A DNA stretch of 64,000 bases from Hexactinellida sp. DTS-2022 (lineage: Eukaryota; Porifera; Hexactinellida). Numbering within the stretch: the stretch's first letter is position 1; every line of letters starts with the position of its first letter. The translations under genes were made by a program, and so were the position numbers. Below, piece after piece: positions 1 to 28,707 of this stretch. The stretch is from contig JAPNXP010000001.1 of assembly GCA_028753945.1 (NCBI GenBank), forward strand, positions 62,001-126,000, given 5' to 3'. Below the pieces are notes generated by a model. That model saw nothing but the letters and a program-made list of their open reading frames with translations, made no database searches and had not been told where the DNA came from.

Positions 1-2536
1 TCGTATTATAACTCTAATAGTTCCAACGATATAATTAATACTTCCTTTGGGTCTGCACACTGCAAGCTCATCCACTAAGTTCTCAGGTTTCTCTACTTGG
101 TTCAATGTGTAGAATTTTGAGTTTTTTCCACCATAATAAATATCTGTTGACGTATATTTATGTTGAATAGGACCAACAGCTTTTGGAGGTTCAGATCGTT
201 TTTCCTTGACACTGATATCTAATGAGAAACATAGAATAATTTCATTGGATTGTCAACTGACTGATATAACTTTGTGTCCCAAAGTTAAGAGGAGGGACAC
301 CCTCTCAAACCTCAATGAATTATTGAGTTATAAACTGTTGTATTAAATTTATACGTACTACAATGATTCAAAGTAGGAATTCATGGAAGTAGAAGTCTCA
401 TCCAGTATTACTAAGACCAGCTAACCTTGAGTAGGTGGTTTGGAAGCATAACAGTCAGCTGATTGATGCTTACTGTCTGCTTTGCACTGAGCAGAAAGTT
501 TGTAAAACTCCAACTTAAATATCTCGAGCTCTTTCATTGAATTATCTAGATTCTCTTTAAGGATGTTATTCTCTGTAATCTTTTCTTCAATGTATGTTCT
601 TAGAGTTTTATTATCCTTGTTTTTATCAGAGAGCTGTTGTTCAAGCTGTCTCACCCGATCAACATCTAAAACACTCCATAATAACTAGAATGCCTATAGT
701 TAGCTAACATTACACTCTACCTGTCGTATCACTATGCTGTCTCCTCATAGCTTGGCCTGTTGGTCTCTTTAACTCGTGTCCCAGACTCTGACTGACGGAC
801 AGTTCGCACACATCCCTCTCGCTCTCCGTCGCTTCAAACTGACTCGCCACGTCTAGCTTGCTAGCTAGCAATTCCTGCGCTCCTCTTAGCTCAGCTTTCA
901 CAGAAGCAACCGCCTTCCTAAGATCGTCACATTCACTCGTTTTGAGAGATAAATTCATTTCCAATTCTTCGATTTTTTCTAAAGATTTCTTGCTACCACT
1001 GATTGCTGCCCCAGAGTAAGTCATTCTACTTTGATTTCCTGAATTACTGTCTAGATTCCTTCCTATTTTGGACACTTGCACCCTCAGATGTATCAATTCC
1101 TTTTCTAACTGGGAGCTATTCCGTCTCATAGTCTCATATTCTGAATCAGCTGGTCGCTTAGACAGTTGTTCAATCAACTGCTGTTTCGTACTCAGTTCCA
1201 CCTGCAGCCCAGCAATGCGTGCGTTCAATGAACTAACGCGTTCTTCTGCACCGACAGATTGCGAGTCAGAACTCCTCTGTTTCCTCTCAAAATCATTTCT
1301 CGTCGAATAACTGTTGTCAGCTAAAGACTCCATCCGGGATTTCAACACGACTATCTCACTTTCCAGCTGCTGCTGCTGGTTAACTAGAGCGGCATTCTCC
1401 TCCCGCAAGGCCTGCTCTCCTCTCCGGAGGTTGACAACCGAAGCTCTCTGAAGGTCCAGCTCCTTTCTGAGCTCGGCAACCAGAGCCTCAGACTCGTCGA
1501 ACTTGGATTTATCTTCGCTGTACTTGTCGAACACTTGGTGTGATTTCTCACTGAATCGTCCTACCAATAAGGAAGACTCAAATCTCCATTCATATCTAAC
1601 CAATAATAAATACACAGAACTTGCATACCCATCTCCTCCTCCAAGCTCTTTAGCTCTTCTACTTTGTAAGATACTGTTTTCTCCTTATCTGCTAGTCTAG
1701 CTTTCAACTCGGATATTGTTTGTTTGTGTTTCTCCTCTCTCTTCAGGAGCTCTGCAGTCTCGGTTGCATGTCGCTGCTTCAGGAGCTCAATCTCAGTCCT
1801 GCACTTTTCCTATCAGTTGAATGACTCATGAAACCAGTGCTTAGACATGCGCCGCAAGAACTAACCAATTCCTTCAATGTCTGCTTGCTTATTCCAGGCT
1901 GAGAATACGAGTCAGCAACAACTTGTCCTTTCGCTAAAAGGAAGTATAATTAATATCTCTGGGCTGGTCTCCGTGAGAGCAAACTAACCGCGGTCAGGTA
2001 CCGCCTTAGGCGCGTCTGCACCTACAGTCTTTAGCACGACCTGGGTCTGCTTGCCTTCGTGCCTCGGGACGCTGAAAGGCATAACCTCGTAGACTCCGCT
2101 GTCGGAGATGTTGAGAGACCCCTCGTGCTCCCCCACCTCCATTTCGCACTCACACTCAAACCTTGCTTTTCCCGAGGAGGCGGGGTTCTGCGACTTGTGT
2201 TCCAGCACGAACATATTTCCGGACTTGTTGAAGAAGTATATTTCTCTCTCCCCGGTCTGCACCTGCTTTATCCACGCCAGCAGCACCGACTGCTTTCGAG
2301 ACGAACTCCCGTCTGCAGAAAGCTCTGTTAAGAGACCAATAACGTAGCTAACCGCAAATCTACTAATTACCTTTATGGGCGTGCTCTCGCTCCGGGGGTT
2401 CCTGCTGCTTGCAGTCCACAGTCATGTGTTTGTCCTTTGCTACCTCTGTTGCGAAATTTTTGCCGCAGAGCGGACACTTCCACTTAGTGTCCTCCATGGT
2501 CCTCCTCCTATTTCTGTGCTCAGAGTTCTCAGACAT
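1..2536 (-). CDS. Zinc finger / beta-domain / coiled-coil / CAP-Gly adaptor (cluster paralog 1), 3' end outside window
   Basis: Seven exons seen on the minus strand: 2536-2371, 2324-1989, 1933-1866, 1809-1629, 1560-721, 665-426 and 218-1. Phases agree and give 683 codons before the window edge. Residues ~20-45 hold a zinc finger (WKCPLCGKNF then H-x4-C). Residues ~68-155 hold the cluster's shared beta-rich domain (LLAWIKQVQTGERE to SDSGVYEVMPF). A long coiled coil rich in E, Q, L and S follows, ending about residue 610. The last exon seen reads KGSINYIVGTIRVIIR, which fits the opening strands of a CAP-Gly domain and aligns with the C-terminus of the paralog at 13367-18076. The function is not known. 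The layout suggests a cytoplasmic adaptor that binds something through the zinc finger, dimerises through the coiled coil and contacts microtubule-end or EEY/F-tailed proteins through CAP-Gly. That role is inference; the domain order is read from the sequence. Confidence 0.72.
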
Positions 2537-2627
2537 CCGATCTCTGCTAGCTACGCTCTGGGAAATTATAAACTATATTCATGCACAAACACGTTAAATA
2601 ACAATAGGTACAGGAGTCCTAACGAGG

Positions 2628-3101
2628 CTACTTGCTGCAGTTGGCGCACAGCGGCATCAGGTCGCTATTAACGGTGTTGCAGTACACACAGAGCCACTGC
2701 TCCGGGCCCACCTCCAGCATGCCCCTGTTGTGCACTCTGTTGCTGGTCGTGTACTTCGGGGGGAGGGGCGGGGGCACGCTGTCCGTCGCTATCTCCACAT
2801 CCGGCGGCAGCTGCACGTGCGTGACGGGCGCCTGCTGGTACCGGTAGGCCAGCTCCAGCTCCTCTATCTCGCTGGAGAGCAGGGAGAGCTCCCGCAGCTT
2901 GCGGTCCACCTCCGAGGAGTGCGCGAGCCCCCCGCCCTCCTGCTGCTGCTGCAGCTCCGACAGCCGCTGCTTCTTGACCTCCAGGCGTCGCCGCACCTCC
3001 TGCTCCTGTCGTATGACGTCATGCAGCGCGCTCAGCATCCGGTCGCACGCCTCCTGTTGCTGCTGCAGCAGCCTCGCCCCTTCGCGCCCAACCGCAGCCA
3101 T
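2628..3101 (-). CDS. Small coiled-coil protein with C-terminal NZF (RanBP2-type) zinc finger
   Basis: Single-exon gene of 157 residues. Residues ~1-85 are a glutamine- and glutamate-rich coiled coil (QQQQ tract, then repeated RRLE/KKQRLSEL heptads). A proline-rich linker (PPPLPPKY) follows. The last 25 residues form an Npl4/RanBP2-type finger: W-x-C-x2-C-x3-N-x6-C-x2-C, ending at the stop. In known proteins such as TAB2 and TAB3 this finger, C-terminal to a coiled coil, binds K63-linked ubiquitin; TAB2/3 also carry an N-terminal CUE domain, which I do not see here. The gene lies head-on between two members of the zinc finger/beta-domain cluster on the same strand, so it may work with them. 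Ubiquitin binding is inferred from the motif. The TF/TY pair that NZFs use for ubiquitin contact is replaced by NT after the second cysteine pair, so binding is not certain. Confidence 0.75.
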   Translation of the reverse strand: MAAVGREGARLLQQQQEACDRMLSALHDVIRQEQEVRRRLEVKKQRLSELQQQQEGGGLAHSSEVDRKLRELSLLSSEIEELELAYRYQQAPVTHVQLPPDVEIATDSVPPPLPPKYTTSNRVHNRGMLEVGPEQWLCVYCNTVNSDLMPLCANCSK

Positions 3102-3631
3102 TTATATGCTAGTCTAGACTTAGCTCACTTATTCTACTTACACTTAATAACGACTTATTACGAGACCAGCTTAACTGAGTCAGTATGTGGCACTGCTGCT
3201 AATTATACTGAGACTATTATAGTAATTTATAATATGTCAGTATACTGCTGAGTAACAGAATTAATTAATTGCAAGTTCTTTCCGAAATGATTTGCTCAGG
3301 TTGATTTGATACATACTATTTGTTTGGAGATTGCGTAACAGTGAAGTTACGTATACTGGCATGCAATATTATAAGACTCACCAAAATTAGCTTGCATTGT
3401 CTATAAAGGAACTGCTGAGAAAATACACCACAATTGGATCAATTACATCCCAAAATTAGAATTTCAGACAAATGGAGCCCTTATAACTGGAGGAAGCTGT
3501 CTCTGGATAATTGTATATATTTTCCGTATTTCTATACAACAAACACTTGGTTTAATAATAGAGTATTTAATTAATAATAGAGTATTCAATGCTGCAGGTA
3601 CGATGCCAGTATCCCTGGTCACTGTGATTGC
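3102..3631. other. Intergenic stretch between cluster genes
   Basis: About 530 bp, AT-rich, with no convincing exon on either strand. It should hold the promoter of the NZF gene (at its left end) and the 3' flank of the gene ending at 3632. Reverse-strand AATAAA-like signals are present near 3550-3590 (two copies of an 'aataatagagtatt(t/c)aat' unit in tandem). Confidence 0.5.
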
Positions 3632-5939
3632 TCAATTAGAGAAGTATTTAGAAAGACTTTGTTGTTTCTGCAGATGCAGTGGGAGGGGCAGTTCTTGATT
3701 CGAGACGCCGGGAACAGCTGGTGGCTCAAGCAGCTGATCAGGCCCCACTGGACTTACCAGCTGTGCTTCCTCAAAGCTGCAGGTGAGGGAGCCGTCCACA
3801 TCCGATAACCCCACGGCAGTCAGCTGATTATCCTCCAGCTCCTGGATCTGTCTCTTGAGCCCGGGGACTATAACTTCCCTGTAGCCCTCCAGCTGCTGCT
3901 GACAGGCCTCAGTCTCTCTCCGCAGCCGCAGGTTCTGCTCCCGCAGCGCGGCCATGTTCTGTCGACTCTCTTCCAGCTCCTCCTCCTTCCGCTTAATCGT
4001 GCTTTGGAAGAACTTGGATATCTCCGGGTCCGGAGGCGCTCTCTGCTCGGACTTAGTCTCACCTCCGAGCTTCGACCGCTCCTTCAGTCTCTCCAGGTCG
4101 AGCTCGCAGGCCTTCTTAACCAGCACCAGTTCGTCGCGCTCCTTCTCCACGGCCCGCAGCTGTCCCCTCAGGGCCCGGGCCTCTGTCTCCTCCCCTCCGT
4201 CCGGCGGCGCCAGGCGCACCTGAGTCCGCTCCGCCACGGCCTCTGGGGCTCTCTCGAGCTGGGCAGCCGTTGAAATCCTCTCTTTGAGAGACTCGCGTAT
4301 TATCTGAGACTTCTCCAGCTCCTTCTTCAGTTGATCCAACTCGAGCTCGCTCTTCGCACTGCTCTCCCTCAGTCTGTCCTCGAGCTGTCCGGTCGCCAGC
4401 TGCCAGGCCCCCTCCCTCCCAGCCAGCTCCTCTCGCGCGCCCCGCAGCTCCGCCTCCAGCTGGGAGACCCTCTCGCGCCTCTCGACTATCTCCTCCTCCT
4501 GGTCCTTCAGCTGGTTCTCCTGAACACTCGTGATCAGCTGGAGGGTGGCCAGCTGCTGCGACAGGTCCGTGTTCTCCTTATCCCTCAAGCTGAGCTGCGA
4601 CTTGCTCCTCCCTATAGCAGAGATAACACTGCGTGTAATCTCAGTTCCGTGCTTACCTAGGGCAGCGGAGAGCTCCCCGTCAGGCCGCTCGGCGCTCGCT
4701 TTCCTCTGCTCGGACTCCCGCTTCAGAGCAGTGACGGTCTTCATGAGCGCCAGCTTCTCCCCCTCCAGCTGCTGCCGCTTGGCCTCCCTCTCTCTGCCCA
4801 GAGTCTCCGCCTGCTTCCGGTACTTGGAGCAGTCAGCTGAGAGCTTCTTGTTCTGCTCCCGCAGCTCGCCCTCTTTCTGCGAGTGCTTGTCGTTCTCTTT
4901 CTGCAGACTCTTTATCTGCTTCTTAGCGTCTCCCTCCCTCGCATTCCAGTCTCCCTCTTGGTTGTTATCCACGGCCTTGCTCAGTTTCTTCTTCAAATCT
5001 CGACTCTTGGACTTCTTGGGGGTTTCGGCCTCTGCCTTACCTGCCACCTGCTCCACAGCCACAGGCTCCTCGCGCTTTTTGAGCTCCTCTGCCTCGTCAT
5101 TAATCGCGAGCTCTATTATCTGCATTTTCGCATTTATCTTGGTTTCGGCTACATAGAAGCTGTGAACTTCCGCAGACAGGTTTATGTCGTTTACGCTGAG
5201 CAGCCCGTCCTGCGGGCCCGCGCTCAGCCGCGCCTCTGCCTGGAACCTGCGCTCCTGGTCGCACCAGCGCAGAGTGACGGCCTCCCCCGCCTTCGTGAAC
5301 AGCTGCACCTCCGTCTCGAGCGTCTGCTTCTCCTTGGTCCACACCAGCAGCACGACCGGCGCCTGGCTGTCGATGGACTCGTACAGCGGCTCCTCAGGCA
5401 CTGGGGACAACAGTAGCTAACTAAGCAGATTAACAGCTGACAGACTCACCAGCTGGCGGCTCCGGCTGGAGACACTGATACAGGTGCTGGTCCCTCTCAG
5501 CTTCGGAGAAGAACTTCTGGCTGCACTGGAGGCACTCCCACCGGGTTGGGCTGCAGGGGGAGAGGGGGGCGTGAGCGGGCAGCAGCTGGCTGTGTCTCTG
5601 CTCCTGTCCCATCGTATGTCTCTGCTCCTGTCCTGTATAGCTGTGTTCTTGTCCCATCAAATAACTCTGCTCCTGTCCTGTATAGCTGTGTTCCTGTCCC
5701 ATCAAATAACTCTGCTCCTGCCCTGTATAACTGTGTTCTTGCTCCATCAAATAACTCTGCTCCTGCCCTGTATAGCTGTGTTCCTGTCCCATGTAGCCGA
5801 GGGGGCTACCTGGGTGTTGGTGGGAGGGGTGGGGGACGTAGGGGTTGGGCTGGGGAGAGGTGGGGTAGAACTGGTGGTGCATTGCTTCACCTGGGAAAGC
5901 GCCGACTTGAGGCAGTGAGTGGTATCTATTTGGGTCCAT
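3632..5939 (-). CDS. Zinc finger / beta-domain / coiled-coil protein (cluster paralog 2)
   Basis: Three exons, 5939-5450, 5400-4657 and 4611-3632, giving 737 residues. Residues 1-130 are Tyr/Gln/Pro-rich and contain four to five near-identical 15-residue repeats (unit GQEHSYTGQEQSYLM). The zinc finger follows (WECLQCSQKFF, then H-x3-C, about residues 134-157). The shared beta domain spans about 178-265 (VVLLVWTKEKQTLETEV). The rest, to about residue 690, is almost all coiled coil, and the tail is Pro/Leu-rich with no CAP-Gly domain. The second intron is 45 bp, a multiple of three with no stop, so reading straight through would add 15 residues. The function is unknown; it looks like a self-associating scaffold. 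The ABCA gene starts 540 bp away on the other strand, so the two may share a promoter. Confidence 0.75.
5590..5810 (-). repeat. 45-bp tandem repeat inside coding exon
   Basis: Four to five copies of a 45-bp unit encode GQEHSYTGQEQSYLM with small changes (for example MEQEH for MGQEH). The reading frame is kept throughout, so the array is a coding minisatellite that probably varies in copy number. Confidence 0.85.
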
Positions 5940-6476
5940 TCACAATATCCTGCTAACTTGAAACGGTATAATATAAAGCTAACTCGCTACTACACTTAAT
6001 TAAGAGCTAAAATGAGCTAGCACTTTGCTTAGTTCATATATTAGCTTATTACGTCATATTTAAATACATTCTCGCCGATTAAATTTAAATTAATTTTAAC
6101 GTACACAACTACACTGTACGACGGTATGTACTTGTGTGTGTGCCAAGCAATGGAAAGTGGGCTTGATTAGATAATTTAGATTAAATAATCCTATCTAGTT
6201 ACCAAGTAACTACCAACTAAAACGAATTACGTAAATAGTTTAGGATCTTTGGAAGTAACATATGTATGCTATCCAACTAGTCACTAACTGTAATCAAAAT
6301 TAATCTGACTAAACTGTAGAAACTAATATTCCAATTGCAAGTCGACAATACTAAATTTGTAATCACTAGCAGGCCTCCAGGGACACATTTATTGACGCTA
6401 ACTACTTATATAAGTACGAGACATTTCCCGTTTTAGAACATCTCTTTGCTTGCTAGCAGTTTACTTATCTTGCAAG
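5940..6476. promoter_or_regulatory. Bidirectional promoter region with TATA-like box for the ABCA gene
   Basis: This 537-bp gap separates two diverging start codons. A TATA-like run (ttatataagtacgag, about 6407-6421) lies 60-70 bp before the ABCA ATG. The rest is AT-rich and I see no exon in it. Promoter function is inferred from position. Confidence 0.5.
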
Positions 6477-9400
6477 ATGAATCTACCGAAGTGTGTACGT
6501 CGTTTCGGATATTTACTATGGAAGAATATTCTTTGGAAAGTTCGCAATTGGCCAGGAACAATTCTAGAGATAATTTTTCCTACTTTTTTATTTATTCTCC
6601 TCATTGTTCTGAGGACTCAAAACCCCCCGGAGAGCAGGCCCCTCCAGGAGCGGGCGGCCAAGGCCCTGCCCAGTGCCGGACTTATACCTTTCATGCAGAC
6701 TGCCTACTGCGACATGAACAATAAGTTCAGCAACAGGCCAGACGGCCTGCCAGACTTCAGCGGGTCAAAGGTCGACTCGTTATACCAACAGCTGGCCAAG
6801 GTGAGTTTATATGCTCAATGTTTGTGGGTCTCATTTTACTGGAACAATTTATAAGATATTCAACAAAACTGATGGAGCACTGGACAATGTCAACAATTTC
6901 CAAGACACAATCCAACACGTATCTCGGTTGTTAGGACCCTCCCCTCCCCAACAGGAGGACACACAAAATCTGAACAGTACTCTCTCCCAGCTGTGCGCCG
7001 GCACTCAAAACAGCTCTCTCAGCCTGAGGCGGCGCTTAGGGCTGGACAGCGTATGCAGCCGCAGCCTAGCGGATAGGACCAGCAACCTGACGTCATCTCA
7101 GAGGAGCCAGCTGTACGCGCTGGCTGCCCTGGGAGTAGGGACAGGGACAGGGACAGGGACAGGGGCGGGGGGCGACCTGTCCAGTCTGGTTGAGCTCTAC
7201 AAGGGCGTGCAGGAGGACCTCGAGGTGGCGCAGGACTTCCGAGAGCTCTTCTCGGACCCGGGCGCCACGCTCTGCGGCAGCCGGGGAAGCGGAGGCAGCA
7301 AACTGCTGGACTATTTCGCGGATAATTCTGCAGACACGGATCAAGCACAGGCTACACGCACTAAGAGAGAAGCAGACACCAACAGTTCCACTCAGAACTC
7401 CAGTAAGCTACTCGTTATTAGCCGCAGCGTTTGTACTGTGTTATCAGTGCCTCTGTAGCGGGAGCAGGGCTCGAGGATACCGGAATCAGAATAATATTCA
7501 CACCTAACAACTCCCTGGCGTGGGGCATCATACGCGAGATGAACACCTCCATACACTACATTGACGTCATCAGGGACCTGCTTAACTCCATCCTCAAGCA
7601 GAACAGAGAGGTGCGGGGGCTCTTGGACAGGCTCTCGGACCAAGGCCAGGACCAGAAGCTCGTCAAAGGTCTCAGGTAAGACAGGTGTTACCATCCCTAT
7701 TAACACGTCTCACAATCGGAATGCCACATAGAGAGCTGGCGAGAGAGCAGAGCATGCATCAGCTGTCGGGAGTGCCCTCCTCGGAGCAGCTGCTGACGGC
7801 CTCCAGCCTCCTGGACCAGCGGGCCTCGCCCAACCTGTGGGACTACACGGACTGGGTGGACGGGAACGTGAGTGCCGTGCTGGGCAGCAGGGCCTTCAGG
7901 ATAAACCTGGACATCTTCCGGGCGTACGGGAGCGAGGCGCAGCTGGTCAGCATAGCGACTGACCAACAGGAGCGGAACAGGCTGGGCATAAGCGCGGTCA
8001 TAGCGGGAATAGTGTTCCAGGTAAGCAGTGCTCTGCGGGTCTCGTCCAAATCTGATGACTGCCTTCTAGAATCTTCCATCCAACGGTACAGCGCTGCCTC
8101 CGCAGGTCCGCTACAAGATTCGCACCTACGGGTACTCCGTGGTGAACCCGGACAAGCTGCGGAACCTCGTATGGGAGCCGGGCCCGGGGACCAGAAAGAA
8201 GCAGTACCTCCAGTACGGGTTCATATTCATACAGGTACTCTATTCGCACTCTAGCTAGACAGTGTTCCTTAATACGCCTATTGTAACAGGACCTGGTAGA
8301 GCGGGCAGTGGTCAACCAACAGCTGAACGCGAGTGTCAACGCCCCCGGGGGGTACGTGCAGCCGTTCCCCTTCCCGTGCTACGAGAGCGACGACTTCATG
8401 CTGGTGCTGCAGGCCGTGCTGCCGCTGCTGCTGGTCATCTCCAGCAGTCTGGCCGTGAGTCTGCTCGCCAGGGTGCTCACCTTCGAGCGCGAGCACAAGC
8501 TGCAGGACATGCTGGCGCTGATGGGCGTGGGGGTGGTGGAGCACTGGTGCAGTTGGATTGTGGTGTACATGTTCCTGCTGCTGCCCTCCACCTGCGTGAA
8601 CTGGGCCGTTCTCAGCTTCGGGGGCATCCTGTCCCGCTCGGACGCGCTCCTGCTGCTGCTGGTGCTGCTCACCTACAACCTCTCACTCACTGCCTTCGCC
8701 ATCCTGGCCAGCATTCCCTTCAAGAACGCGAACATCGCCGGCAGCGCGACCGGCCTGATCTACTTCGTGCTCTTCTTCCTCACGCCGGTGGTGGAGTACC
8801 TGGAGTTCAGTCTGAGCATGTGGCAGATGCTGCTGGTGCTGCTCCTCAGTCCCTCTGCGCTGGGACTATTCACCTACTACGCGGTGCAGTACGAGGTGCA
8901 GGCGACCGGTCTGCACTGGAGCAACCTGCACCTGTCCCCCTACACCACGGACAGGGCCAACCCGCTCTTGTGCTGGCTGTTCCTGCTGCTGGACGCTGCG
9001 GTATACTTCTGGCTGGCCTTCTACCTGCAGGCGGTGCTGCCGGGTCTGCTCGGGGTCCGCAGGCCCTGGTACTTCCCGCTGGACCCGCGCTACTGGCTGG
9101 GCTCCCACCGGGCCGCGGCCCTCTGGAGGCGGGTCCGGGGGGACAGACAGGCCCCGCTGGAAGACGCGTCCGCTCTGCTGGAGGGGGAGGGGGGCAGCTG
9201 GGAGGTGCTGGCCGAAGAGGAGGGACCGGAGCACCTGGAGAAGGGGGTGGAGGTAAACCGAATGGGCAAGACGTACTCGTGGGGGCTCTTCGGGCGCCAG
9301 AAGGTGGCTGCGCTCCACTGTCTGTCTCTGAGTCTGTACGAGGGACAGGTGACGGCCCTGCTGGGACACAACGGGGCCGGCAAGACCAGTCTGATGATGA

Positions 9401-12400
9401 TTCTGAGCGGAATCCTGTCCCAGAGCTCCGGCAGCGCCACCATATACGGCAAGTCCCTGGAGAGGGACATCGGCCAGCTGCGCGACCGCTACTTGGGCCT
9501 GTGTCCGCAGCACAACATCCTCTACGACCACCTGAGCGCCGACGAGCACCTGCTCTTCTACGGGGCCCTGCGGGGGCTGCCCGGGGCCCAGATCCGCAGG
9601 GAGGCGGCGGCGCTGCTGGCCTGCATGCGGCTGCTCGCGCACAGGGGGAAGCGCGTGCACCAGCTCTCGGGCGGCATGCGCAGGAAGCTCTGCGTCTGCA
9701 TCGCATTCCTGGGCGCGCCCAAGCTGGTGGTGCTGGACGAGCCCACGGCCGGGATCGACCCGTACTCGCGGCGACACATCTGGGACTTCCTGATGTCGCA
9801 GCGCGAGGGCAGGTGCATCCTGCTGAGCACACACCACATGGACGAGGCGGAGGTGGTGGGCGACCGGATTGCCATCATAGACCACGGACACCTCCTCTGC
9901 GTGGGCGGGCTGCCCTTCCTGAAGCAGCAGTTCCAGCTCAAGTACCTGCTCAAGCTGGAGAAGGAGAGCGAAGCCACGGCCACGAGTGACGTCACGCGGC
10001 TCGTGCAGACACACGTGCCCTCCGCCAAGCTGGACAAGGGGGCGGGCGAGGAGGTGCACTACTCCATTCCCCTCTCCGTGGTGCGAGAGGACGAGAGTCT
10101 CTCCCGCCTCTTCTCGGTGCTGGAGCGCGAGCGGCGCGCTCTCGGGATCTCCTCCTACGGCCTCGAGACGCCCACCCTGGAACAGCTGTTCCTTAAGCTC
10201 ACGCAGCTGCGCTACAGCGATGAGATAGCGCAGCAGAGTCCGGAGGAGACAGGGAAACCCGTCGTCTCCAGCCCCGCCCCGCCCTCCCGCGCCTCTCGCC
10301 TCCTCTCCCCGCTCCGCGGCTGCTGCCTGCAGGCCTACGCGCTGCTGCTGAAGAGACTGCACCACTCGCGACGGGACCTGAGGGGGCTCCTCCTGCAGTA
10401 CTTCCTGTTCCTCTTCATGCTGGCGCTCACGCTGTGGGTGACCAGCCTCTCTCCTTACCCCGATAACAGCGGCGCCATCACATTCTCCACGGCTGCTTAC
10501 GAGCAGATCTCGGATCCTAACCAGTTCGTCATCCTCGGTTCCGGCCTGCTCCCTGTCCCCTCTGGCTATCCGACGGCTGAGAGCTATCTGCAGACCGTCG
10601 TCTGTCCGGGGGGGCTGGGCGTGCCCACCGGATACACCCCGGACCCCCTCCTCGAAAACTCACACCTCAACTTCTCATCCAATAGCAGACAGACGCCCCT
10701 ACTGTGTCCGTGGTACCCTCGGCAGAAGTGGCACTCATTCAATACCGTCAACAGGACACAAGTGCAGAGTCTGGTTAACGCCAGCTGTTCCTGCGTCGCA
10801 GGAGACTACCAATGTCCGGCGGGTTCCTCCGGCCCCCAGCCCGGGACCCTGGTGTGCGTGGGGGACGGGAGCGTGCTCCTGGACCTCCGGGGGCGGAACG
10901 TCAGCGACTACCTGCTCAAGACGCAGCGGCGGTACGTGCAGCGGCTCTACGGGGGCGTCAGCTTCGGACAGACTCGCGAGGACGTCCCCAAGGTGAGGGG
11001 AGACATCCGCGATGCTGTCAACAAGAATATCCGCGAGAACAACAACAAGCTAAGCTTCGAGACGTTCGTGGAGAGAGAGTACAGCAAGGCCTGGTTCAGC
11101 TTCAAGGGGTACCACGCGATGCCCATCTACCTGAATGTGATGAACAACGCGATTCTGCGTCGCGAGCTCTGGAGCCTGCGCGGGCTCTCCTCCAACCTCT
11201 CCAGCTACGGGATCGTGGCCGCCTCGGAGCCCTGGCCGCCCACCCGCGACGAGCTGGCGCTGAGACAGATCCGCTCCGGCAAGCCGCTCATGGTCCCGCT
11301 GCTGGCGCTCTTCGGGTTCTGCTTCCTGGCCTCTTCCTACGTGCTGTTCGTCCTCGAGGAGCGGGTCTCGGGCACGAAGCACCTGCAGGCCATCTCGGGC
11401 CTCAACAAGCTGGTCTACTGGAGCTCCTCCTACTGCTGGGACCTGGCGGGGTACACCCTGGCCATCCTGCTCGGCTCCCTCGTGCTCGTAGCTTTCGACA
11501 AACCCGAGTTCGTGTCCCCCGCCTACTACCCAGTGTTCCTGGCGGCCTGCATGGGGTTCGGGTGCGTGAGCATCTCCCTCATGTACTCTGTCTCCTGGCT
11601 ATTCTCCAGCCCCGGCAAGGCCTACGTGGTCATGTTCTGTCTCAGCTACGTGGTGGGGATGATAACCATGGTAGTCAACTTCTCGTACGACTTCATCAAC
11701 AGGGACAAGAACGAGGACACCGTGCACCTCCTGGAGAACATATTCCTGGTCTTCCCCTCCTACTCCCTCTGCAAGGTGTTCTACCAGCTGATCAGCATAT
11801 ACCTAACGGAGACCGCCTTCAGGGAGTTCGGCGCTAAGTTCAACGTCAGCGGCGAGGCGGCGGGCTCCCAGAGCCAGCTGTACCAGTTCGACGCGGTCTG
11901 GAAGTACACCACCGCCATGTTTGTGGAGGCGGCGCTGCTGTTCCTGCTTAACCTCGCTATCGACCTGTGTTCCGACTTTCTCACCAGCCACCCGCCCCTC
12001 AAGCTGCTTCCTGTCAGACGCGACGCTCTGGAGGGGGATGACGTCATCGAGGAGGAGAGACGGGTGTTGGCGGGGCCCGGGGATTACACGCTGTCCCTCT
12101 CGCACCTCTACAAGCGCTACTTCAGCCCCAGGGACCTGCTCCGCCCCTTCCTGCCGCGAGCCCTGCGGCGCCCGGCCCCGTACGCCGTGCGGAACCTGAC
12201 GCTGGGCGTGCGCGGGGAGTGCTTCGGGCTGCTGGGGCTGAACGGGGCGGGCAAGACCTCCGTCTTCAACATGATAACCGGGGCGCGCAGTGTGAGCAGC
12301 GGGCGCATCGGGATATCCGGGCAGGACATACAGCGGGCGCGTCTCAGCGCCTACCGGCTGCTGGGCTACTGCGCGCAGCACGACTCGCTGTTCCCGCTGC

Positions 12401-13122
12401 TCACGGGCCGCGAACAGCTGCTGCTCTACGGACGGCTGCGCGGCCTGAGCGGGAGACAGCTGGCGCGGCGGGTCGATCAGCTGATCGGCAGGCTGTGTCT
12501 GGACGAGTACGCAGACATGCCCTCGGGCCGGTACTCCGGGGGCAACAAGCGCAAGCTCTCGACCGCGATCGCGCTGGTCTCGCGGCCCCCACTGCTGCTG
12601 CTGGACGAGCCCACCGCGGGCATCGACCCCTACGCCAAGCAGTTCCTGTGGAAGCTGATCCGCGAGCTCACCTCCCAGGGCGTGTCCTCCCTGCTCACCA
12701 CGCACAGCATGAGCGAGTGCGAGGCTCTCTGCTCGCGCATCGGGATCATGAAGGACGGGCGGCTGCAGTGCGTGGGGTCCCCCCAGCACCTCAAGTCCCG
12801 GTACGGACAGGGCTACGTGCTCAAGTTCCACCTCAAGCCCGCGGAGGAGCACCAACAGCTGCTGCGGGAGGTGCAGCGGAGACTGCCCCAGGCGCGCCTC
12901 AAGAACGAGCACCAGTCTCTGCTGGACTTCCAGCTGGAAGGAGAGTTCAGCCTGAGCGAAACTCTCTCCCACGTGTTCGCGATTATGAAGGAGTTCCCCA
13001 TCCAGGAGTTCTCGATCGGACAGACGACCCTGGACGACGTGTTTCTGAGTATCGTGTCGGACCAGGAGCCCACCGCGGGCGAGGAGCTCGCGCTCACGGA
13101 CCTACGCACCGTAGCTGTATAG
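6477..13122 (+). CDS. ABCA: Full-length ABCA-family (ABCA1-type) lipid transporter
   Basis: Six exons: 6477-6800, 6856-7402, 7459-7675, 7732-8020, 8106-8234 and 8290-13122, joined in phase to 2112 residues; human ABCA1 has 2261. The layout is typical. A first membrane helix lies near residues 27-46 and a large N-glycosylated extracellular domain follows to ~residue 500. A membrane block and nucleotide-binding domain 1 come next (Walker A GHNGAGKTS, signature LSGGMRRK, Walker B VVLDEPTAGIDP). A second extracellular loop with many Cys, a second membrane block and NBD2 (Walker A GLNGAGKTS, signature YSGGNKRKLS, Walker B LLLDEPTAGIDP) complete it. ABCA proteins move or flip lipids and sterols at the plasma membrane or endosomes; the substrate cannot be read here. 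The last exon alone is 4.8 kb, odd beside the five small ones. The gene lies on the plus strand inside the minus-strand adaptor cluster. Confidence 0.95.
7138..7175 (+). repeat. Hexanucleotide repeat (ggacag)n in ABCA exon 2
   Basis: Four to five copies of ggacag/ggacagggacag encode a short Gly-Thr run in the first extracellular domain. The repeat stays in frame. Confidence 0.8.
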
Positions 13123-13366
13123 GGGGGCACTGCTTTTAAGCGCGCGGACATTTTAACACTCATTTTATTCATTTTTAACTAAGGCTTGATGCCAATTGTA
13201 AATCTTGTTCAACATTTATTCGTGTTTACTGCATGAAGCTGGTCTGTTTGTTTAGCCCTGACACAGAGAAAAGATTCAGAAAATTCATTAACAATATACA
13301 ATCAAGTTACAACTGGCCAGTTAACTATTATCTAGAATACACAGATTACAATTGTAAATATTGGCT
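13123..13366. terminator. Convergent 3' ends of ABCA and the CAP-Gly gene
   Basis: Only 244 bp separate the two stop codons. Reverse-strand AATAAA signals (seen as tttatt at about 13163 and 13214) would serve the minus-strand gene. No other coding content is seen. Confidence 0.5.
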
Positions 13367-16300
13367 CTACGCCACGTGCACAAACACCTCCTCCACGTAC
13401 ACGAACAAAGCGTGGTTGTGCTCGCACTCGAAGTACCGCATGCCCTCGAACTGCCCGTTGGAGGTCCCGGCCGCCTCTTCTAGCTTGACGCCCGCGATCA
13501 CCAGCGTCTTACTCGGGTAGGAGTACCGCTTCGAGAAGATAAGCTGCAGGGTGCCCAGTCGGTATATGTCCCGCACCTTGACCAGCACCTGTTTGTGCAG
13601 GTGGCTCTCCGGCCGCTTCAGGTAGGACAGTCTCGTAGCATTAACGGAGCTAGACTTGTAGAACAGAGGCGTGTGCTTCTGAACGAAAGAGGTGAGGAGT
13701 TCGGGTCGGTAGATCTCCAGGCCTTCTATCCGGCTGGAGTGGTTTCTCAGGACTCTGGGCGTGGCTTTTGGGGCGTCCGCACTCCGCCCCTCCAGCTCCT
13801 GCACCCTGTTCTGCACCGAGGCCTTCCTCTTGTAGCTCTTGGCCGCAGGGGAGGCGGGGGGGTCAGTAGGGGACAGGGGCTCCCTCAAGTGATCCGAGTT
13901 TATCTTAGCTGTCAACTCGTACCCAGTTACTAGACTGGGCTTCTTAGCTGGCACCGGTTTCTTGTCCTGGGGCTTATCCTTGCTGAAGTACTCTCCCGTT
14001 TCAGCTTTCTTGTGATCGGACTCCGTAGAGCCGAGCGACAAGTACCCCCTCTCGTTGAAGGCAGGCCTCGCGGCCTCCGTGTGTCTCTCTGTGGTGGAAC
14101 TGAGATCTCTGCTGTTTGCGGAATTAACAAGTTTAACAGCCTCCGCCTGTTTCGATTTATTCGCTAGAGTGCTGATCTCAATTAGTCTCTGTGCGTAATC
14201 ATCCTGTAACTGCTGATGCGCATTCTTCAGCTCCTCGTGAGTCGTCCTCTCGCCCTCCGAGTTCAACTTGACCCTGTCACGCTCATCTATAGGCAGCAAT
14301 AGTTAACGCAGTAGATTAATAAATAATATAGCTAATAGCCCAGAGTACTCACTCTTGTACTTGTAGGCGGCTGCCTTATAAGAGTCCCTCTCCATTTGAA
14401 TATTTTGTATTTTCTTCTGCGATTCATCCAGCAGATCCTGGATCCTACCCTCCAGCTCTTTGCTGCGCTTTTCGGCAAGTTGCTGCTTGGCCCTGGCCTC
14501 CTCTCTGTTCCTAATCGCCTCTTCCTTCTCCCTAAGGAGGGCGGCGGCTCTCTCCTCCAGCTGTCTGGCCCTCTCGCCGTCCGCGGGCTTGTCTTTCAGC
14601 TGAGTCATGGCGGACACGAACTGCTTCTTCAGCTGCTCAATCTCCCTACTCAGCACGTCGTTCTCGTTGTCGCGCGCCTGCTTCAGCTTGTACAGGTTGT
14701 CGTAGTTGCTCTGCCACTTGCGCACCTCGGCCCCCAGGACCCTCTCCCCCTCCTCCCGCTCAGCCCGGGAGTTCGTCAGCTCTTCCTTCAGCTGTCCGAT
14801 TATCCCATCGATCTGTTTCTTGTACTCGGCCTCCTCTCGAGATTTGTCTACTCAGAGGAGTTAATAAGCAGTAGCAACAAGGTGTTATAAGACATTAGCA
14901 CCAAGAGGTGTTATAAGACATTAGCACTAGGGTCCTAAAGAGAGACTCACCGACAGCAGCAGCTGGCTTGCTCCTCGGGGGTGGGAGGGGCTGCTCCCCG
15001 GTGGGAATCCGGAACTCCACTCGACTCCTCTCTTCCTGCGCGGGCTGGGAGGACCTGCGGACAGCCTGCTCCCTCTGTGCCCCTTGTGTCCCTGAGAGGG
15101 AGACCGGTCTCTCCTCTGTCCCCAGCAGCTGGGAGGGAGGGGCCAGGGGACTGCTGATGTCCTGCTTGGACAGCTCTTCCCTGTGCTCTATAAATAGAAT
15201 TAATTAACTGATACTAATATAAGCATTCTACGAGTGCGCCTTACTCGGTGCAACTATCGGTCTAGCGACCGGTGGGACAGATTGCTCCTGGGGGAGCGAG
15301 GCGAACTCCTGCGTGGGCGGGACTGCCCTGAGAGCGGAGAGCGGGAGCGTGGCTCTCCTCTCCTCTCTCACGATCTGGAAAGGCCGGGGGTGAGGCTGCT
15401 GATCCTCCTTCCTCTCAGACAAATACTTTTGAGGTCGTAGCTCTTCGAGTCGCGTGTTGGTTGCAATATGTTTGCTGTGGACATCTAAACAAAACAAACA
15501 ACATGTTAATTAATATGCAACTTATTGAGTTACTTGACTACAATAGCCACAATATTATCATAACCTATTCTAGATTATAACAATGACTCAATTATGATAT
15601 TGTGCAATTATTGAATGTCTACTTTATACTTTATACTGATTACCAGTAGACATATTCAGTAAGGTTCTGCTTTCAAGAGCCAGTGCTCTTGTGGCACAAT
15701 TAGGAACTTAATCATCGTGTTTACTGAATACTGAGTGTGTGACTAATTAACTTTATGTTTTAGGATGTGTGACTCACATACAGAGGAAAAGTTAATTAAG
15801 CAAATTAACTTACGGTAGCATTACCTGTGTGGACTTAATTATACAATAATATTTGTTAGTATGATACAAGAGTTCGCATCATTATTAAAAGTAGGAAAAC
15901 AAATTACCAATAATATTATATAATGCTTGATAATGTTAGTTGCTCGTGAGTGCACCACGTTTGTAACAATAAGAACAGCAGTTAATTAACCAGTAAACTG
16001 ATTAACTCTCAATAAGAACAGTCGTGAAGGTCACGGAACAGTGTACATATCTACATTGAATATAATTACCTATCTGTGAGTAGAGCGGCCGCTGGATGGG
16101 CTCGGGGGGAGGGTTGTACCTCGGGGCGATGTCGATCAGGTCCAGCTTTATCTCCTGCACCGATACGCTGAACTGGCTGACATTGAATGGGTGCACCTCG
16201 TACACGACCAGCTCCGTGTCGGGGATGGCCAGACTGCCGGTGTGCTCGCCGGGAGACAGCCGGACCGAGGAGGTGAAGGCCTCCTTTCTGGAGTCCCACT

Positions 16301-18076
16301 TGAGCAGAATCTGCTCCGTGTCCACGTTGTCCAGGTACCCCAGTTCGGTCTCAAGGGTGGGCTGCTGCTTCTCCCACGACAGCTTAACCTCGAACCTTCC
16401 CCTCCTCGCCGCCTCGGGCGCGGGGCCCGCCGGCTGGGCCTGGGTAGGGGGCGGGGGCGGGGGCGGGCCGCTCACGGGGTGGTTGTGTCTCTGGACCTGC
16501 TGAACTAGGGTCCCGTCATGCTGAGAGGCTATATGATAACGACAGTTAAATTAAGGTGCCCATGATAATACACGTGTGTTATGTAGCATTAAATACAAAC
16601 ACGTGTGAGCAGCATATGGCAGAACTCTTAAGTGAGCATACTTACAGTCTCTCCAGGCGGTGCGTGTGTCGATCTTTGAGCTGCCGAGGTCGGCAGAGGC
16701 CTGCTTAGTAGCGGTCACATGGAGAGGATGGGGGGAGATAAAGGGGGCAGACTCCGGCAAGGGGGGAGGGGCCCGAGGGGTGTACATGAGCTGAGAGGAG
16801 CGGGAGTATCCGAACGGAGCTGTGGGCTGGGGAGGGGGAGGGGGGCCTGCCAGTGGGTACTGGGGGACTGGAGGCTGGAACTGAGTGGTTTGAATATTCA
16901 TGTTTCGGAATAGCTGGTTCTTGGCCCCCTCCTGTAGGTACTGTGAGATGTGCGTGCTGTTAGCGACAGCGGCAGCCGTCGGGTACTTGGGCTTGGGGGG
17001 CGGGTACTGAATGCGTCTGCGCATGTCTTCCTCTGCTGGGTCGTTCTGCAGGTAACCTAACAGAGAGAGTAACCAGTAAACCTGTAGCGTAGACAGGAGA
17101 AAAGAGCAGGAATTATTCTATAGAAAGAGGAATGGAAAAGTAGAGTAGTTCAAGAGGTAAACATTCCTTGTATCCTAATATGATGCTGGAATGGAAACAA
17201 ACCGTTTAATACCGAAAAAATAAGATTGCTAGACATTTAAAGGTTCGTGCTGGGTAGAGATTATCCATTAATTGATTAATTATCAGTAATTTAAAGGAAA
17301 AACATCAAAACTTCGTATGTAATTAATAGTTAATGGAATGTTCCGAGAAATAAATCAACCAAATAATAAATTAATTAACTAGAAGAATTCAATCAAAAGT
17401 TAATTAATTAGATGATAAACCATAACAACCATACATACCCTGTGGAATGGGAGGCTGCGCTGTCAGTTGGGTGGGTTCTATTCTTGATCCCACTGCAGAG
17501 CTGAAGTCACTCTTCTGAAGGGTTTGATTTGGGGCTGCATGTGGAGATGTGTAGGGCCACCCTCCATCGTTTTGGGATTGTCTAAATAGTACATTTGAAT
17601 AATATTATACCAGTACCAGTACCAGTACCATAGCCTAGTGATAACTGATAAGTATTCAGCTTGGGAGGAGTCTCGCTACTAAGACGCTTATAAATTTATA
17701 TATTAAAATAGAATAAGAATGTGCATTGCAATATATATGATCATAAGGAATTTATGTGATCATATATATTTAGAACAGATCAATTGAAGCAAGGCTTTAG
17801 ACAGGCCTAGCCTGCGTTAATTAATACAATATTCAAAAGTATAATTTCCTATTTGAATTGGTGTCGCTTGCGACTTGACCATTACCTGAGGAGAGCACGA
17901 ATTGGAGGGTCGTAGCTGCTGTCAAGAGAGTTGGGCCCGTCACCTAACGTACAATTCTCCATGTGAAGGTCCTTGTTCAATTCTGAATCAAATTTTTCCC
18001 CACATAAAAAGCACTCGAAAATATCTGAAGATGTTCGTAGCATAAAACCGATATCATTTATCTGCCGTGAATACAT
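13367..18076 (-). CDS. Zinc finger / beta-domain / coiled-coil / CAP-Gly adaptor (cluster paralog 3, complete)
   Basis: Eight exons in consistent phase: 18076-17886, 17581-17439, 17056-16646, 16528-16070, 15484-15245, 15187-14951, 14847-14353 and 14286-13367, giving 1031 residues. Order of parts: zinc finger at ~20-42 (FECFLCGEKFD then H-x3-C); a Pro/Gln-rich stretch with polyproline (PPPPPQP, PPPPPPPTQ); the shared beta domain at ~285-370 (KLSWEKQQPTLETEL to YEVHPFNV); a second disordered part; a coiled coil at ~570-800; and a C-terminal CAP-Gly domain over about the last 80 residues. The CAP-Gly ends NGQFEGMRYFEC-x3-HALFV, the usual G-x-RYF-x-C-x3-HG-x-FV block. The canonical GKNDG groove reads GTSNG, so tubulin-tail binding may be altered. 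The likely role is a microtubule-linked adaptor; that is inference. The ZnF+beta+coil+CAP-Gly order is not one I recognise. Confidence 0.78.
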
Positions 18077-18652
18077 TTTTTGACTGAAATAAACTGATTC
18101 TAATCAAATTTGAAATATATATAACTATGTACGTAAATATCACACGAGTATTTATATATGAGAATTAAATTTACTATTCTACTTTGTATACAACTAGCCT
18201 AATAAGAATGTGGTTAAAAGTAGAGTTACTATCTTTTCAATATGTAACCTGGATACAGAATGTAGAATAGCAATCTGTAACTCAAATAATTTCTCTCCAT
18301 CCTCAATTCAAACTAGTGTGGCCAATCGGCCTATACTATCAACTTAGGAAGAGTAGAACCAAGATCTGCATATCGATTTGTTGAGGTAGCAATGGTTTAA
18401 TTGTTGGTAGTATTCGAATATTTTATTTGAATATTATAGCAACGTATGCTCTATTCTTGGAGGTATATTAGTAATTTCGAGTCTAATTACAATCCTGGGA
18501 ATACAATAATGAAATGTCAAAAACATTAGCTGTAGAAAGGTAGTTTAGTAACTAATCATATAGTATAGTATCCAATAACTATTGACATCTAAAACTAGTG
18601 AAATAGTGAGAGTAGGGAGAAGGATCAGAGCACTGGTGACGATCATACGCAG
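18077..18652. other. Intergenic stretch between two cluster paralogs
   Basis: 576 bp, strongly AT-rich. It should contain the promoter of the CAP-Gly gene (start at 18076) and the 3' flank of the next gene. I see no exon, tRNA or repeat in it. Confidence 0.45.
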
Positions 18653-20561
18653 TTAGTTGATTGGGACAATCTTAAGAATTAACTTCGAATGGTCTGAAGG
18701 AGCTATTAATGGCACATGGAATTTCTCCACTGTGTACATTCCCGAGTCTACGAGGGTCAGCTGACCGAAGTGCTGCCCCTCCTCCAGCTCGGTCTCGCAC
18801 ACGTAGTACTCCTGTCTCCTGTCCCACAACAGTTCGCTGCAGCCGTCATAGTTGTCGAAGTAGAAGACGCGGTCCCCCATGGTGTCCACCTGTTTGTACC
18901 AGATTAGCAGCACTTTGTATCTACGAATCTCCTCAAGGTATTTGTGCGCTGAGCTAGAGTGTCGCTGCACGGGCGGAGGCGCCGGGTGGATGGGCAGCGG
19001 CAGCTTGTGTGCGGACGGGCTCTGAGCCTCAAGTTCGCTCGCAGGGAGATCTGCTTTCGCCGGGGATCCCCTAGAGAGTTCTAAGGGCTGAGTGAAAGCC
19101 CTTGGGTGTGGCAGAACGGGCGCCATCCTACTCTGGTTCTGAGCCTGCGGATGGCTGAGGAAGGGGGCCGCGGGCGGAGGGGCAGGGTCCGGGGCCTGGG
19201 GTCTCTGCGGGGTGTCCAGCAGGGGCGCGTTGTTGGCTACGATACGGGGAGAGAGGTTTATTTGTTGTACGGAGGGCGAGTAATTTGATATACCGGATAC
19301 GGTGGGCTGCTGGGTGTTAGCAGGGGTGTAGTGGGGCGGGTTAGAGACCTGTCGGTACCGCGTCTCCTCATGCACTGGGTTGAAGTTGTTCAATCTAGAG
19401 AGTCACATAACATACCTATCTACCTAAGTGGTAGCTAGGTCGGCACTTACGCGGCGCTCTGCTGCTGCTGTCCCATTTGATAGAAGTGCGCCTGTGCGGT
19501 CTCTCTCTGCGCCGGGCCTCTGTGGCCCGACAGAGATGACGTCATGGGCACACACTGCCCCTCTCTCTTGTGGGTCTCTATTTCTGCGATCGAGGGGAAG
19601 ATCTGCCCGCAAGCGGTGCAGGCCATTGGCGTTATTCGCAGCGAAGTGGCGTCTCCCGGGGAGCGAGCAGAGTCCGATACCCGCCTGGGCATGATGGGTC
19701 CCTCCACGGGCACGAATATGGGCGGGTACACGCCCTGCACAGAGTAGGGCTCCCGCAGGTTGTGGGACTGGACCGCGCCGTAGATGGGATTATCCGCAAC
19801 TTGGAACCTGGCCTTCTGCTCCTGTCCCCCCGTCTGGTGCTGCTGGGCGGGGGAGGGGGCGGGGGCGGGGCTCTGGCAGTAGACACACGGACAGGGACCA
19901 CTGCCCCCCGAGTGGGCCCCCTGTCCGTGGGGGCTCGGGCCCGGGGAGGGCCTCTTGTGCGGCTCGGAGGCGTAGGAGATTGTGCATATGTTCTGGATGG
20001 ACTGCTCCACGTCCTGCGACCCCCACAGGATGCGGATGTTCAGCTCCCTGTCTATCTTCTGTCGGAACTCCTCGATAGAGGCGGCCACGGTCGTCAGGAT
20101 CTTAAAGTTGACGTCTCCAAGTGTGTTTGTACCTAAGCATAGCTAGCTAACAGATACCATACGTATAGTGCCGTGAATAGGCTACCTAACTTCTGCTGGT
20201 TGAGGTTGTAGGTCTCGCTGAGGAGGTTTATGTTCTTGGCGCAGGTGTCCAGCTCGTTGAGTCTGTCATTGAGAACCTGGTCCAGTTCCTGGCTCACCTG
20301 CTCCTCCCTCTCGGCCAGCGAGTGTCGGATCTGGTCAAACTTCCGCTTCAGGTCGGAGTGCTGCGTCTCCACTATTCTGCGGATCTTCTCCTTGGCCTGC
20401 TGGACCGACTCCTGGCTCTGCGACCCCCCGGGGAGAGGGGGCGCGTTGGTGCCGGCGGTGTTCTGGTGCCGCGGGAGTTGGTAGCTCATGAGTGAGGTGT
20501 CTCTTGGGGATATAACTGGGAGCGAATGGAAGAGAAGTAAATTACGAGATTCAGTAGTCAA
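18653..20561 (-). CDS. Coiled-coil / zinc finger / beta-domain protein (cluster paralog 4, shuffled order)
   Basis: Three exons, 20561-20186, 20132-19451 and 19394-18653, giving 599 residues. A later in-frame ATG (MSYQLP, near 20489) could also be the start. Here the coiled coil comes first (residues ~50-160, TRIM-like heptads such as VSQELDQVLNDRLNEL). The zinc finger is in the middle (~320-345, MACTACGQIFPS then H-x5-C), and the shared beta domain is at the very C-terminus (~515-599, VLLIWYKQVDTMGDRVF to SGMYTVEKFHV). A long Pro/Gln/His-rich linker joins finger and beta domain. This is the same set of modules as the neighbours with the coil moved to the front, so it is either a shuffled relative or the ancestral layout. 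Its N-terminal coil resembles the coil of the PDZ gene at 57165-58192. Function unknown. Confidence 0.75.
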
Positions 20562-28627: not shown

Positions 28628-28707
28628 AATCAGTCACGCACAAGAGGTAGTCATCTATACTTTATACTTAAATTGTATACACAGTTAATGTTAATGTTAG
28701 TATTAAT

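Follow-up and report, generated by a model that had tools for sequence, protein, structure and literature searches.

The locus described here raises the question of what is encoded by a run of neighbouring genes that share two modules, a compact zinc finger and a beta-rich domain of about 90 residues. Four of these genes, named A, B, D and E and carrying one C2HC finger and one such domain apiece, lie on the minus strand at positions 1-20,489 of a 64,000-nucleotide stretch from the sponge Hexactinellida sp. DTS-2022 (contig JAPNXP010000001.1, here C1; C1:62001-126000). This stretch is called the window below, and the genome searched comprises 112 Mb in 18 contigs. The four genes form part of a larger clustered family, and their beta domain is predicted to have the fold of starch- and glycogen-binding modules. 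The explanation favoured here, at a probability of roughly 0.37, is that their products are ubiquitin-reading scaffolds or adaptors, located in the cytosol and made oligomeric by a coiled coil.

Extent and architecture of the family

For all six pairs of beta domains from A, B, D and E, the local score is higher than in any of 2000 shuffles (z 10.4-27.2). Across the six reading frames of the window, C-x2-C-x12-H-x3-5-C is found four times, once in each of these genes, whereas 50 two-base shuffles average 0.16 occurrences. Both results bear out the initial annotation, which had described four neighbouring genes sharing the domain and a finger ending in H-x3-C or H-x5-C; the ending in gene A is H-x4-C.

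The same annotation had presented a cluster of four genes. This is correct for the window, but the family is larger, with at least 14 beta domains in 13 genes found by searching the sponge's own genome with the four window domains and one further member. These counts are lower bounds, as the genome searches score best candidates only. The family reaches about 13 kb upstream of the window and onto four other contigs. A cluster of eight genes with nine beta domains spans about 34 kb, from about C1:48.9 kb to 82.5 kb. Starting upstream of the window, it comprises a gene that has two beta domains and three others upstream, and then A (which runs past window position 1), B, D and E, and the run is broken by an ABC-transporter-like frame and a small gene. 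The five dispersed members are found at C1:249.5 kb and on contigs C2, C3, C5 and C16. Some members are weak: the C16 copy was seen once (E 0.65), the C2 and C5 copies never fall below E 0.005, and that at C1:60.7 kb never falls below 0.009. Agreement in the motif positions is the reason for keeping these.

Divergence among the beta domains is extreme, with a median end branch of 1.99 changes per column and none of the 11 inner tree branches starred. In five of the eight clustered genes (A, D and three upstream), the domain occupies its own exon between phase-1 introns, in gene models drawn by hand from GT-AG splice sites without RNA; symmetrical phase-1 exons favour exon shuffling. Among the dispersed copies, four of five have the domain within a single long frame, and the C1:249.5 kb copy, by reading, has an intron inside the domain. 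A rearranged partial copy of gene A, in DNA pieces 97, 89 and 70% identical, is present at C1:143000-147500 and has not been counted as a member. At C1:144.7-145.9 kb this copy lacks the central part of its beta domain and is preceded by a different coiled-coil-like stretch; it looks like a case of duplication and decay.

The pairing of finger and beta domain in one clustered family, as initially proposed, also stands, but it left out the coiled-coil-like stretches and, in 5 of the 13 genes, a divergent CAP-Gly domain. The fullest architecture consists of the finger, a proline-rich linker, the beta domain, a coiled-coil-like stretch and the CAP-Gly domain. The C3 gene has all of these parts within one open frame of 1207 residues, and gene D has them all in an eight-exon, hand-drawn open model of 1031 residues. 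Gene E and the gene with two beta domains have a coiled-coil-like start and end with the beta domain, and comparison of the two gives only a 20-residue motif in common (E 4e-4). The finger is seen in seven genes (A, B, D, E, the C3 gene and two upstream), the upstream exons of the other six not having been exhaustively searched. The CAP-Gly domain is seen in A, D, and the C1:249 kb, C3 and C5 genes. Pfam gives no CAP-Gly match in the scanned frames of seven genes (B, including its exon 2 frame, E, C2, C16 and three upstream), and the 3' end of one upstream gene is unmodelled. The coiled coils were assigned by eye; matches to coiled-coil families in Pfam are weak. Candidate tyrosine motifs of the SH2 type occur in 5 of the 13 genes, in a plain motif listing. 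Among the titles and abstract openings seen in the open-access literature, no described architecture resembling a finger, beta domain, coiled coil and CAP-Gly domain was found.

The beta domain and its predicted fold

At the level of sequence, the beta domain remains as unassignable as the initial annotation had found it: no Pfam model is matched over cut-off across the 13 members (best E 0.016), and a 13-member profile matches no PDB sequence at E 10. Its predicted fold, in contrast, is that of starch/glycogen-binding modules. AlphaFold2 models were obtained for domain D (pLDDT 88.0, pTM 0.77, seven strands) and domain E (pLDDT 87.2, pTM 0.77, the same seven strands); both were built on the same four-sequence alignment, and so they are not fully independent. 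For E, the best of five models alone is good (pLDDT 87.2, 71.9, 49.8, 42.1 and 40.3). In Foldseek searches of the PDB, the first match for D is the AMPK glycogen-binding module 1z0n (E 2.3e-3, probability 1.00, TM 0.55/0.60), and that for E is the starch-binding domain of Bacillus cereus beta-amylase, 1cqy (E 3.8e-4, TM 0.58/0.57). By title reading, 40 (D) and 42 (E) of the 50 matches listed for each model are CBM20, CBM41 or CBM48 structures, many of them redundant, with amylase and CGTase matches taken as their starch-binding domains. An E value of 0.001 or lower is reached by none of 942 matches for D and by three of 783 for E, and other Ig-like sandwiches also appear. Among viral predicted structures searched with the D model, none of 594 matches is significant at E 0.001. 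As judged from the models, the assignment to the CBM20/CBM48 fold is good, and homology is unproven.

The likeness to known CBM20/CBM48 proteins such as AMPK beta, STBD1, SEX4 and beta-amylase lies in the predicted seven-strand sandwich and the best Foldseek matches, both obtained for two members, and in a shared F-x5-L-x2-G-E-H pattern in domain D. However, the family lacks a sequence-profile match to them, the glycogen-contact tryptophans are not evident, and the domain is joined to a finger, a coiled coil and a CAP-Gly domain. Pfam matches a CBM family in none of the 13 members. Genome scans with AMPK1_CBM and CBM_20, which report best candidates only, list no family locus; the former has three other places in the genome and the latter has none. 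At the positions of the AMPK glycogen-contact tryptophans W100 and W133, domain D has non-aromatic residues, in one weak alignment register. A coiled coil joined to a starch-module fold is also a feature of the PTST plant proteins (coiled coil plus CBM48), which are plastid proteins and, unlike the sponge family, are not known to have a finger or CAP-Gly domain.

Sequence comparison fails to separate CBM48 from SKICH. In hhalign, 17 of 300 and 6 of 200 column shuffles score at least as high as the beta profile does against five diverse CBM48 sequences (14.6 in the latter test), whereas the score against a two-sequence SKICH-type set is 17.0, reached by 2 of 200. An unrelated CAP-Gly control scores 14.2, reached by 8 of 200. 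Because the control scores about as well, these profile comparisons carry little weight. Sequence homology to AMPK beta, suggested by a two-sequence comparison (E 0.0036, probability 9%), was dropped after the five-sequence CBM48 shuffle test, and an Ig V-set or titin identity, suggested by weak matches (E 0.03-0.9), was rejected and is not reproduced by the 13-member profile. SKICH is not favoured as the identity of the domain either, as none is present among the 50 Foldseek matches listed for either model. Pfam SKICH matches none of the 13 members, and the three SKICH places in the genome (one over cut-off) all lie outside the family loci.

Zinc finger, CAP-Gly domain and possible functions

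The initial annotation had likened the finger to UBZ-type ubiquitin-binding fingers, which holds in part. The gene A finger passes PF18112, the model of the autophagy-receptor finger (23.7 bits against a cut-off of 23.2), and it is the only one of the seven family fingers to do so, with a match that ends before the histidine. In all seven fingers, an Asp or Glu is found two residues before the zinc-binding histidine (H-2). The second finger of TAX1BP1, mutated as Q770A/E774K, is reported to be required for association with K63-ubiquitin (PMC4599966). In the letters of the TAX1BP1 fingers, a Q and an E four apart that fit Q770 and E774 place E774 two residues before the first zinc-binding histidine, and the H-2 acid of the family fingers stands at the place of TAX1BP1 E747/E774. 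By analogy, this conserved acid is suggestive, although not proof, of ubiquitin binding, and it is on this basis that the family finger may bind ubiquitin.

The CAP_GLY model of Pfam is matched over cut-off in all five CAP-Gly-bearing family genes in the genome scan (31-45 bits); in a separate Pfam scan, the C5 domain scores 25.5 bits, just below 26.5. GKNDG, the groove motif of tubulin- and EB-binding CAP-Gly domains (EEY/F-binding, as in CLIP-170 and p150), is absent from all 12 of the divergent CAP-Gly domains that were examined; each of them has G-x-[SC]-[ND]-G in its place. Half of these 12 belong to family genes or to the damaged copy of gene A. Elsewhere, the genome has 15 separate and stronger CAP-Gly places (54-94 bits). 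In CYLD, CAP-Gly2 and CAP-Gly3 are reported to bind ubiquitin, CAP-Gly3 to bind NEMO and all three domains to bind internal peptides (PMC13376213).

The same divergent CAP-Gly domain also ends coiled-coil-like genes at C3:4878500-4884700, next to the full C3 gene, and a pair of such genes at C10:305900-308200; no finger or beta domain has been seen in these. A 675-residue frame at C7:3553800-3556200 (positions 57-2081 there, plus strand) has an N-terminus guessed to be helical and a C-terminal divergent CAP-Gly domain, and a death-fold domain guessed by eye in this gene was unsupported when checked.

If the family proteins are ubiquitin-reading adaptors, the C2HC finger would bind ubiquitin weakly, and the coiled coil would multimerise the protein and so provide avidity for chains or densely ubiquitylated targets. 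The beta module, as a CBM20/CBM48-type sandwich, would form a second recognition surface for protein or glucan. The C-terminal CAP-Gly domain, where present, would recruit partners via non-canonical peptides or ubiquitin, as the CYLD CAP-Gly domains do, and not via C-terminal EEY/F tails of the tubulin type. The many variants would have arisen by tandem duplication and rapid divergence. The best reading is that the family would work like the TAX1BP1/NEMO/CYLD group without belonging to it, with SKICH, UBAN and deubiquitinase domains unmatched.

TAX1BP1 and NDP52 (CALCOCO) resemble the family in the PF18112 match of gene A, the coiled-coil-like stretch, a beta-sandwich domain and the H-2 acid. 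They differ from it in that the family has no Pfam SKICH match, a finger spacing of x12 and not x15, a CAP-Gly domain in some members, and a finger that is N-terminal or central in all seven finger genes and never C-terminal. CYLD is similar in having CAP-Gly domains that are not known to carry GKNDG, and in the link to ubiquitin proposed here, but it has three such domains at the N-terminus whereas the family has one at the C-terminus. A CYLD-type peptidase or deubiquitinase domain gave no match in Pfam scans of the frames given, which do not include every exon. NEMO, optineurin and ABIN combine a coiled-coil scaffold with a finger of the C-x2-C-x12-H-x3-C type (the NEMO spacing), but the CC2-LZ/UBAN motif of such proteins has no match over cut-off in the family's genome. 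A UBAN motif guessed by eye in the gene D coiled coil has no support in the genome scan.

A separate gene at C10:337.6 kb (C10:336082-339411, frame 217-1896 on the minus strand, 560 residues) has a SKICH-like N-terminus, a coiled-coil-like middle and a C-terminal C2HC finger. Its SKICH match falls short of the cut-off of 23.4 bits both in the genome search (22.2) and in the protein scan (19.0). From its sequence, it looks like an invertebrate TAX1BP1/CALCOCO gene that is distinct from the beta-domain family.

Several results weigh against ubiquitin reading by the family. The PF18112 match of gene A (profile positions 2-18 of 27, residues 7-23 of 36) stops just before the histidine, the other six fingers do not match this model at E 10, and a genome search with it returns only the gene A finger from the family, below cut-off (22 bits, E 0.04). 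A glutamine at H-6, the position of Q770 and the second TAX1BP1 contact, is found in none of the seven fingers. Both TAX1BP1 fingers have the spacing C-x2-C-x15-H, three residues longer than the C-x2-C-x12-H of all seven family fingers, and the first of them, which carries the same acid, is reported to be unnecessary for ubiquitin binding (PMC4599966). With the family CAP-Gly profile, structures of CEP350 and CLIP outscore CYLD, and UBAN (CC2-LZ) is over cut-off at no place in the genome, in an exon-by-exon search that may miss a split motif. With the finger in 7 and the CAP-Gly domain in 5 of the 13 genes, neither seems essential. Finally, the coiled coil rests on by-eye reading and the gene models on hand drawing without RNA. 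Because of the PF18112 match that stops short and the x12 spacing, confidence in ubiquitin reading was lowered from 0.40 to 0.37, and that in scaffolds without ubiquitin function was raised somewhat.

Such scaffolds are a tentative alternative, in which the finger would be structural or bind protein or nucleic acid, the beta domain would be an Ig-type sandwich for protein-protein contacts, and the role would be another signalling or cytoskeletal one. A ubiquitin-type Pfam model is reached by one of the seven fingers with its histidine left out, the generic C2H2 jaz model is touched by three, and the PDB profile matches listed for the finger, 60 of 139 in all, are mostly to generic C2H2 fingers and rubredoxins. 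The finger spacing unlike that of TAX1BP1 and the proline-rich, tyrosine-containing linkers also fit generic scaffolds. However, the H-2 acid is conserved in every finger, the fingers have H-x3-5-C and not H-x3-4-H, and they are single, whereas DNA-binding fingers usually occur in tandem arrays. Microtubule plus-end or dynactin-type linkers, in which the CAP-Gly domain would bind EB1 or tubulin tails as in CLIP-170 and p150Glued, are an unlikely explanation. CEP350, CLIP and tubulin-chaperone structures are the best matches of the CAP-Gly profile, there are long coiled-coil-like stretches, and CLIP-170 also combines CAP-Gly, coiled coil and zinc knuckle; but GKNDG is missing from all the divergent domains examined, seven genes have no CAP-Gly domain in their scanned frames beside the five that do, and the genome has its 15 stronger CAP-Gly places elsewhere.

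A glucan-based role is more doubtful again. Glucan-tethered ubiquitin receptors, with the beta module on glycogen or abnormal alpha-glucan and the finger on nearby ubiquitin, would serve polyglucosan quality control or glycophagy. This reading is quite improbable, and it has been kept low because domain D has no aromatic residue at the AMPK glycogen contacts, in the weak register available; the best candidates in genome scans with AMPK1_CBM and CBM_20 include none of the family, and thirteen diverged genes exceed a housekeeping need. In its favour, starch/glycogen-binding modules rank first for both models, with the CBM20 domain of STBD1 among the matches listed. Moreover, HOIL-1 is reported to ubiquitylate unbranched glucosaccharides in vitro, and the glycophagy machinery is put forward in the same study as a means of their recognition (PMC9016349); a starch-module fold with a ubiquitin-type finger would suit the role suggested by that work. 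A related long shot is that of dedicated receptors for ubiquitin on or around alpha-glucan, in which the module would grip glucan and the finger ubiquitin, the coiled coil would cluster cargo and the CAP-Gly domain would recruit effectors. If true, the expansion would reflect polyglucosan clearance or microbial-glucan recognition in a filter-feeding, symbiont-rich animal. In the open-access literature nearest this reading, seen in part and searched non-exhaustively, no protein joining a starch-type module and a ubiquitin-binding finger was found. It is very improbable that the beta domain is a highly diverged SKICH and the family a reshuffled offshoot of TAX1BP1-type receptors. The SKICH set does score above the CBM48 set in the profile comparison, but the unrelated control also scores, the Foldseek matches listed include no SKICH, and the Pfam SKICH places are all outside the family. 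An artefact, whether chance similarity or a mis-assembled repeat, has a negligible probability: the incomplete gene A copy speaks for this explanation, but it is refuted by the pairwise z of 10-27 and by the single C3 frame that holds finger, beta domain, coiled-coil-like stretch and CAP-Gly domain, and reading frames and splice sites are kept across diverged copies.

NEMO, TAX1BP1 and CYLD are ubiquitin-reading adaptors that control inflammation and selective autophagy in vertebrates. If the sponge proteins are also ubiquitin-reading adaptors, as favoured here, a tandem-expanded and fast-diverging family, possibly an early animal one, would have a similar layout built from different parts, and such scaffolds would have been assembled more than once. 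A starch-module fold would also be placed in ubiquitin signalling, a combination suggestive of a little-known branch of that signalling. Now that a fold is predicted for a domain that sequence searches do not place, others should be able to annotate it, and the family provides directly testable domains, the finger with ubiquitin and the beta module with glucan or protein.

Gene parts and neighbouring genes

Table 1. Parts of the four family genes within the window
Feature	Window position	Strand	Basis
Gene A exon 1 with zinc finger (2411-2476, C-x2-C-x12-H-x4-C)	2371-2536	-	pattern scan, PF18112 match
Gene A beta-domain exon (domain 2008-2301), phase 1 introns on both sides	1989-2312	-	pairwise similarity, hand model
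Gene A coiled-coil-like exons (1933-1866, 1809-1629, 1560-721)	721-1933	-	hand-drawn GT-AG model
Gene A CAP-Gly, first part; remainder upstream of window (C1:61863-62024)	1-24	-	35.4 bits, over cut-off
Gene B exon 1, Gln/Tyr repeats and zinc finger (5472-5534, H-x3-C)	5450-5939	-	pattern scan
Gene B exon 2, beta domain (5075-5365) and long coiled-coil-like stretch	3632-5400	-	open reading frame, pairwise similarity
Gene D exon 1 with zinc finger (17951-18013, H-x3-C)	17886-18076	-	pattern scan
Gene D middle exons, proline-rich/coiled-coil-like (17581-17439, 17056-16646, 15484-15245, 15187-14951, 14847-14353)	14353-17581	-	hand model
Gene D beta-domain exon (domain 16119-16409), phase 1 on both sides; first domain modelled	16070-16528	-	similarity, AlphaFold2
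Gene D last exon with CAP-Gly (13370-13597)	13367-14286	-	CAP_GLY E 5.3e-10
Gene E exons 1-2, N-terminal coiled-coil-like stretch and zinc finger (19552-19620, H-x5-C)	19451-20489	-	pattern scan
Gene E exon 3, proline-rich linker and C-terminal beta domain (18656-18934); second domain modelled	18653-19394	-	similarity, AlphaFold2

The frame that separates B from D is ABC-transporter-like (ABCA type by eye) and lies on the opposite strand at window positions 8287-13122 (plus). Between A and B is a small single-exon gene (2628-3101, minus) that is coiled-coil-like and has no beta domain. It ends in an NZF-like finger (2637-2696) whose pattern, read by eye, is W-x-C-x2-C-x3-N-x6-C-x2-C, that of ubiquitin-binding NZF fingers. 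Pfam gives no RanBP/NZF match for this gene, and the seven matches from a PDB search, all weak, include 2crc (ubiquitin conjugating enzyme 7 interacting protein 3; E 0.83).

Further along the window, two frames on the minus strand are TRIM/NHL-like: an NHL-repeat frame at 27746-28633 (E 2.8e-6), and one at 41985-43283 that matches beta-propellers (SGL E 8.6e-5, below cut-off) after a coiled-coil-like start. An N-terminal coiled coil common to the latter and gene E was considered and is unsupported (E 13). Outside the window, a frame at C11:99136-102345 (minus) has a HECW-type N-terminal domain (E 8.6e-16), with NHL-like repeats, by eye, in the neighbouring upstream frame. At about C1:248 kb, a gene on the plus strand with a MATH (TRAF-type) domain (E 3.1e-30) adjoins the dispersed gene with a beta domain and CAP-Gly domain.

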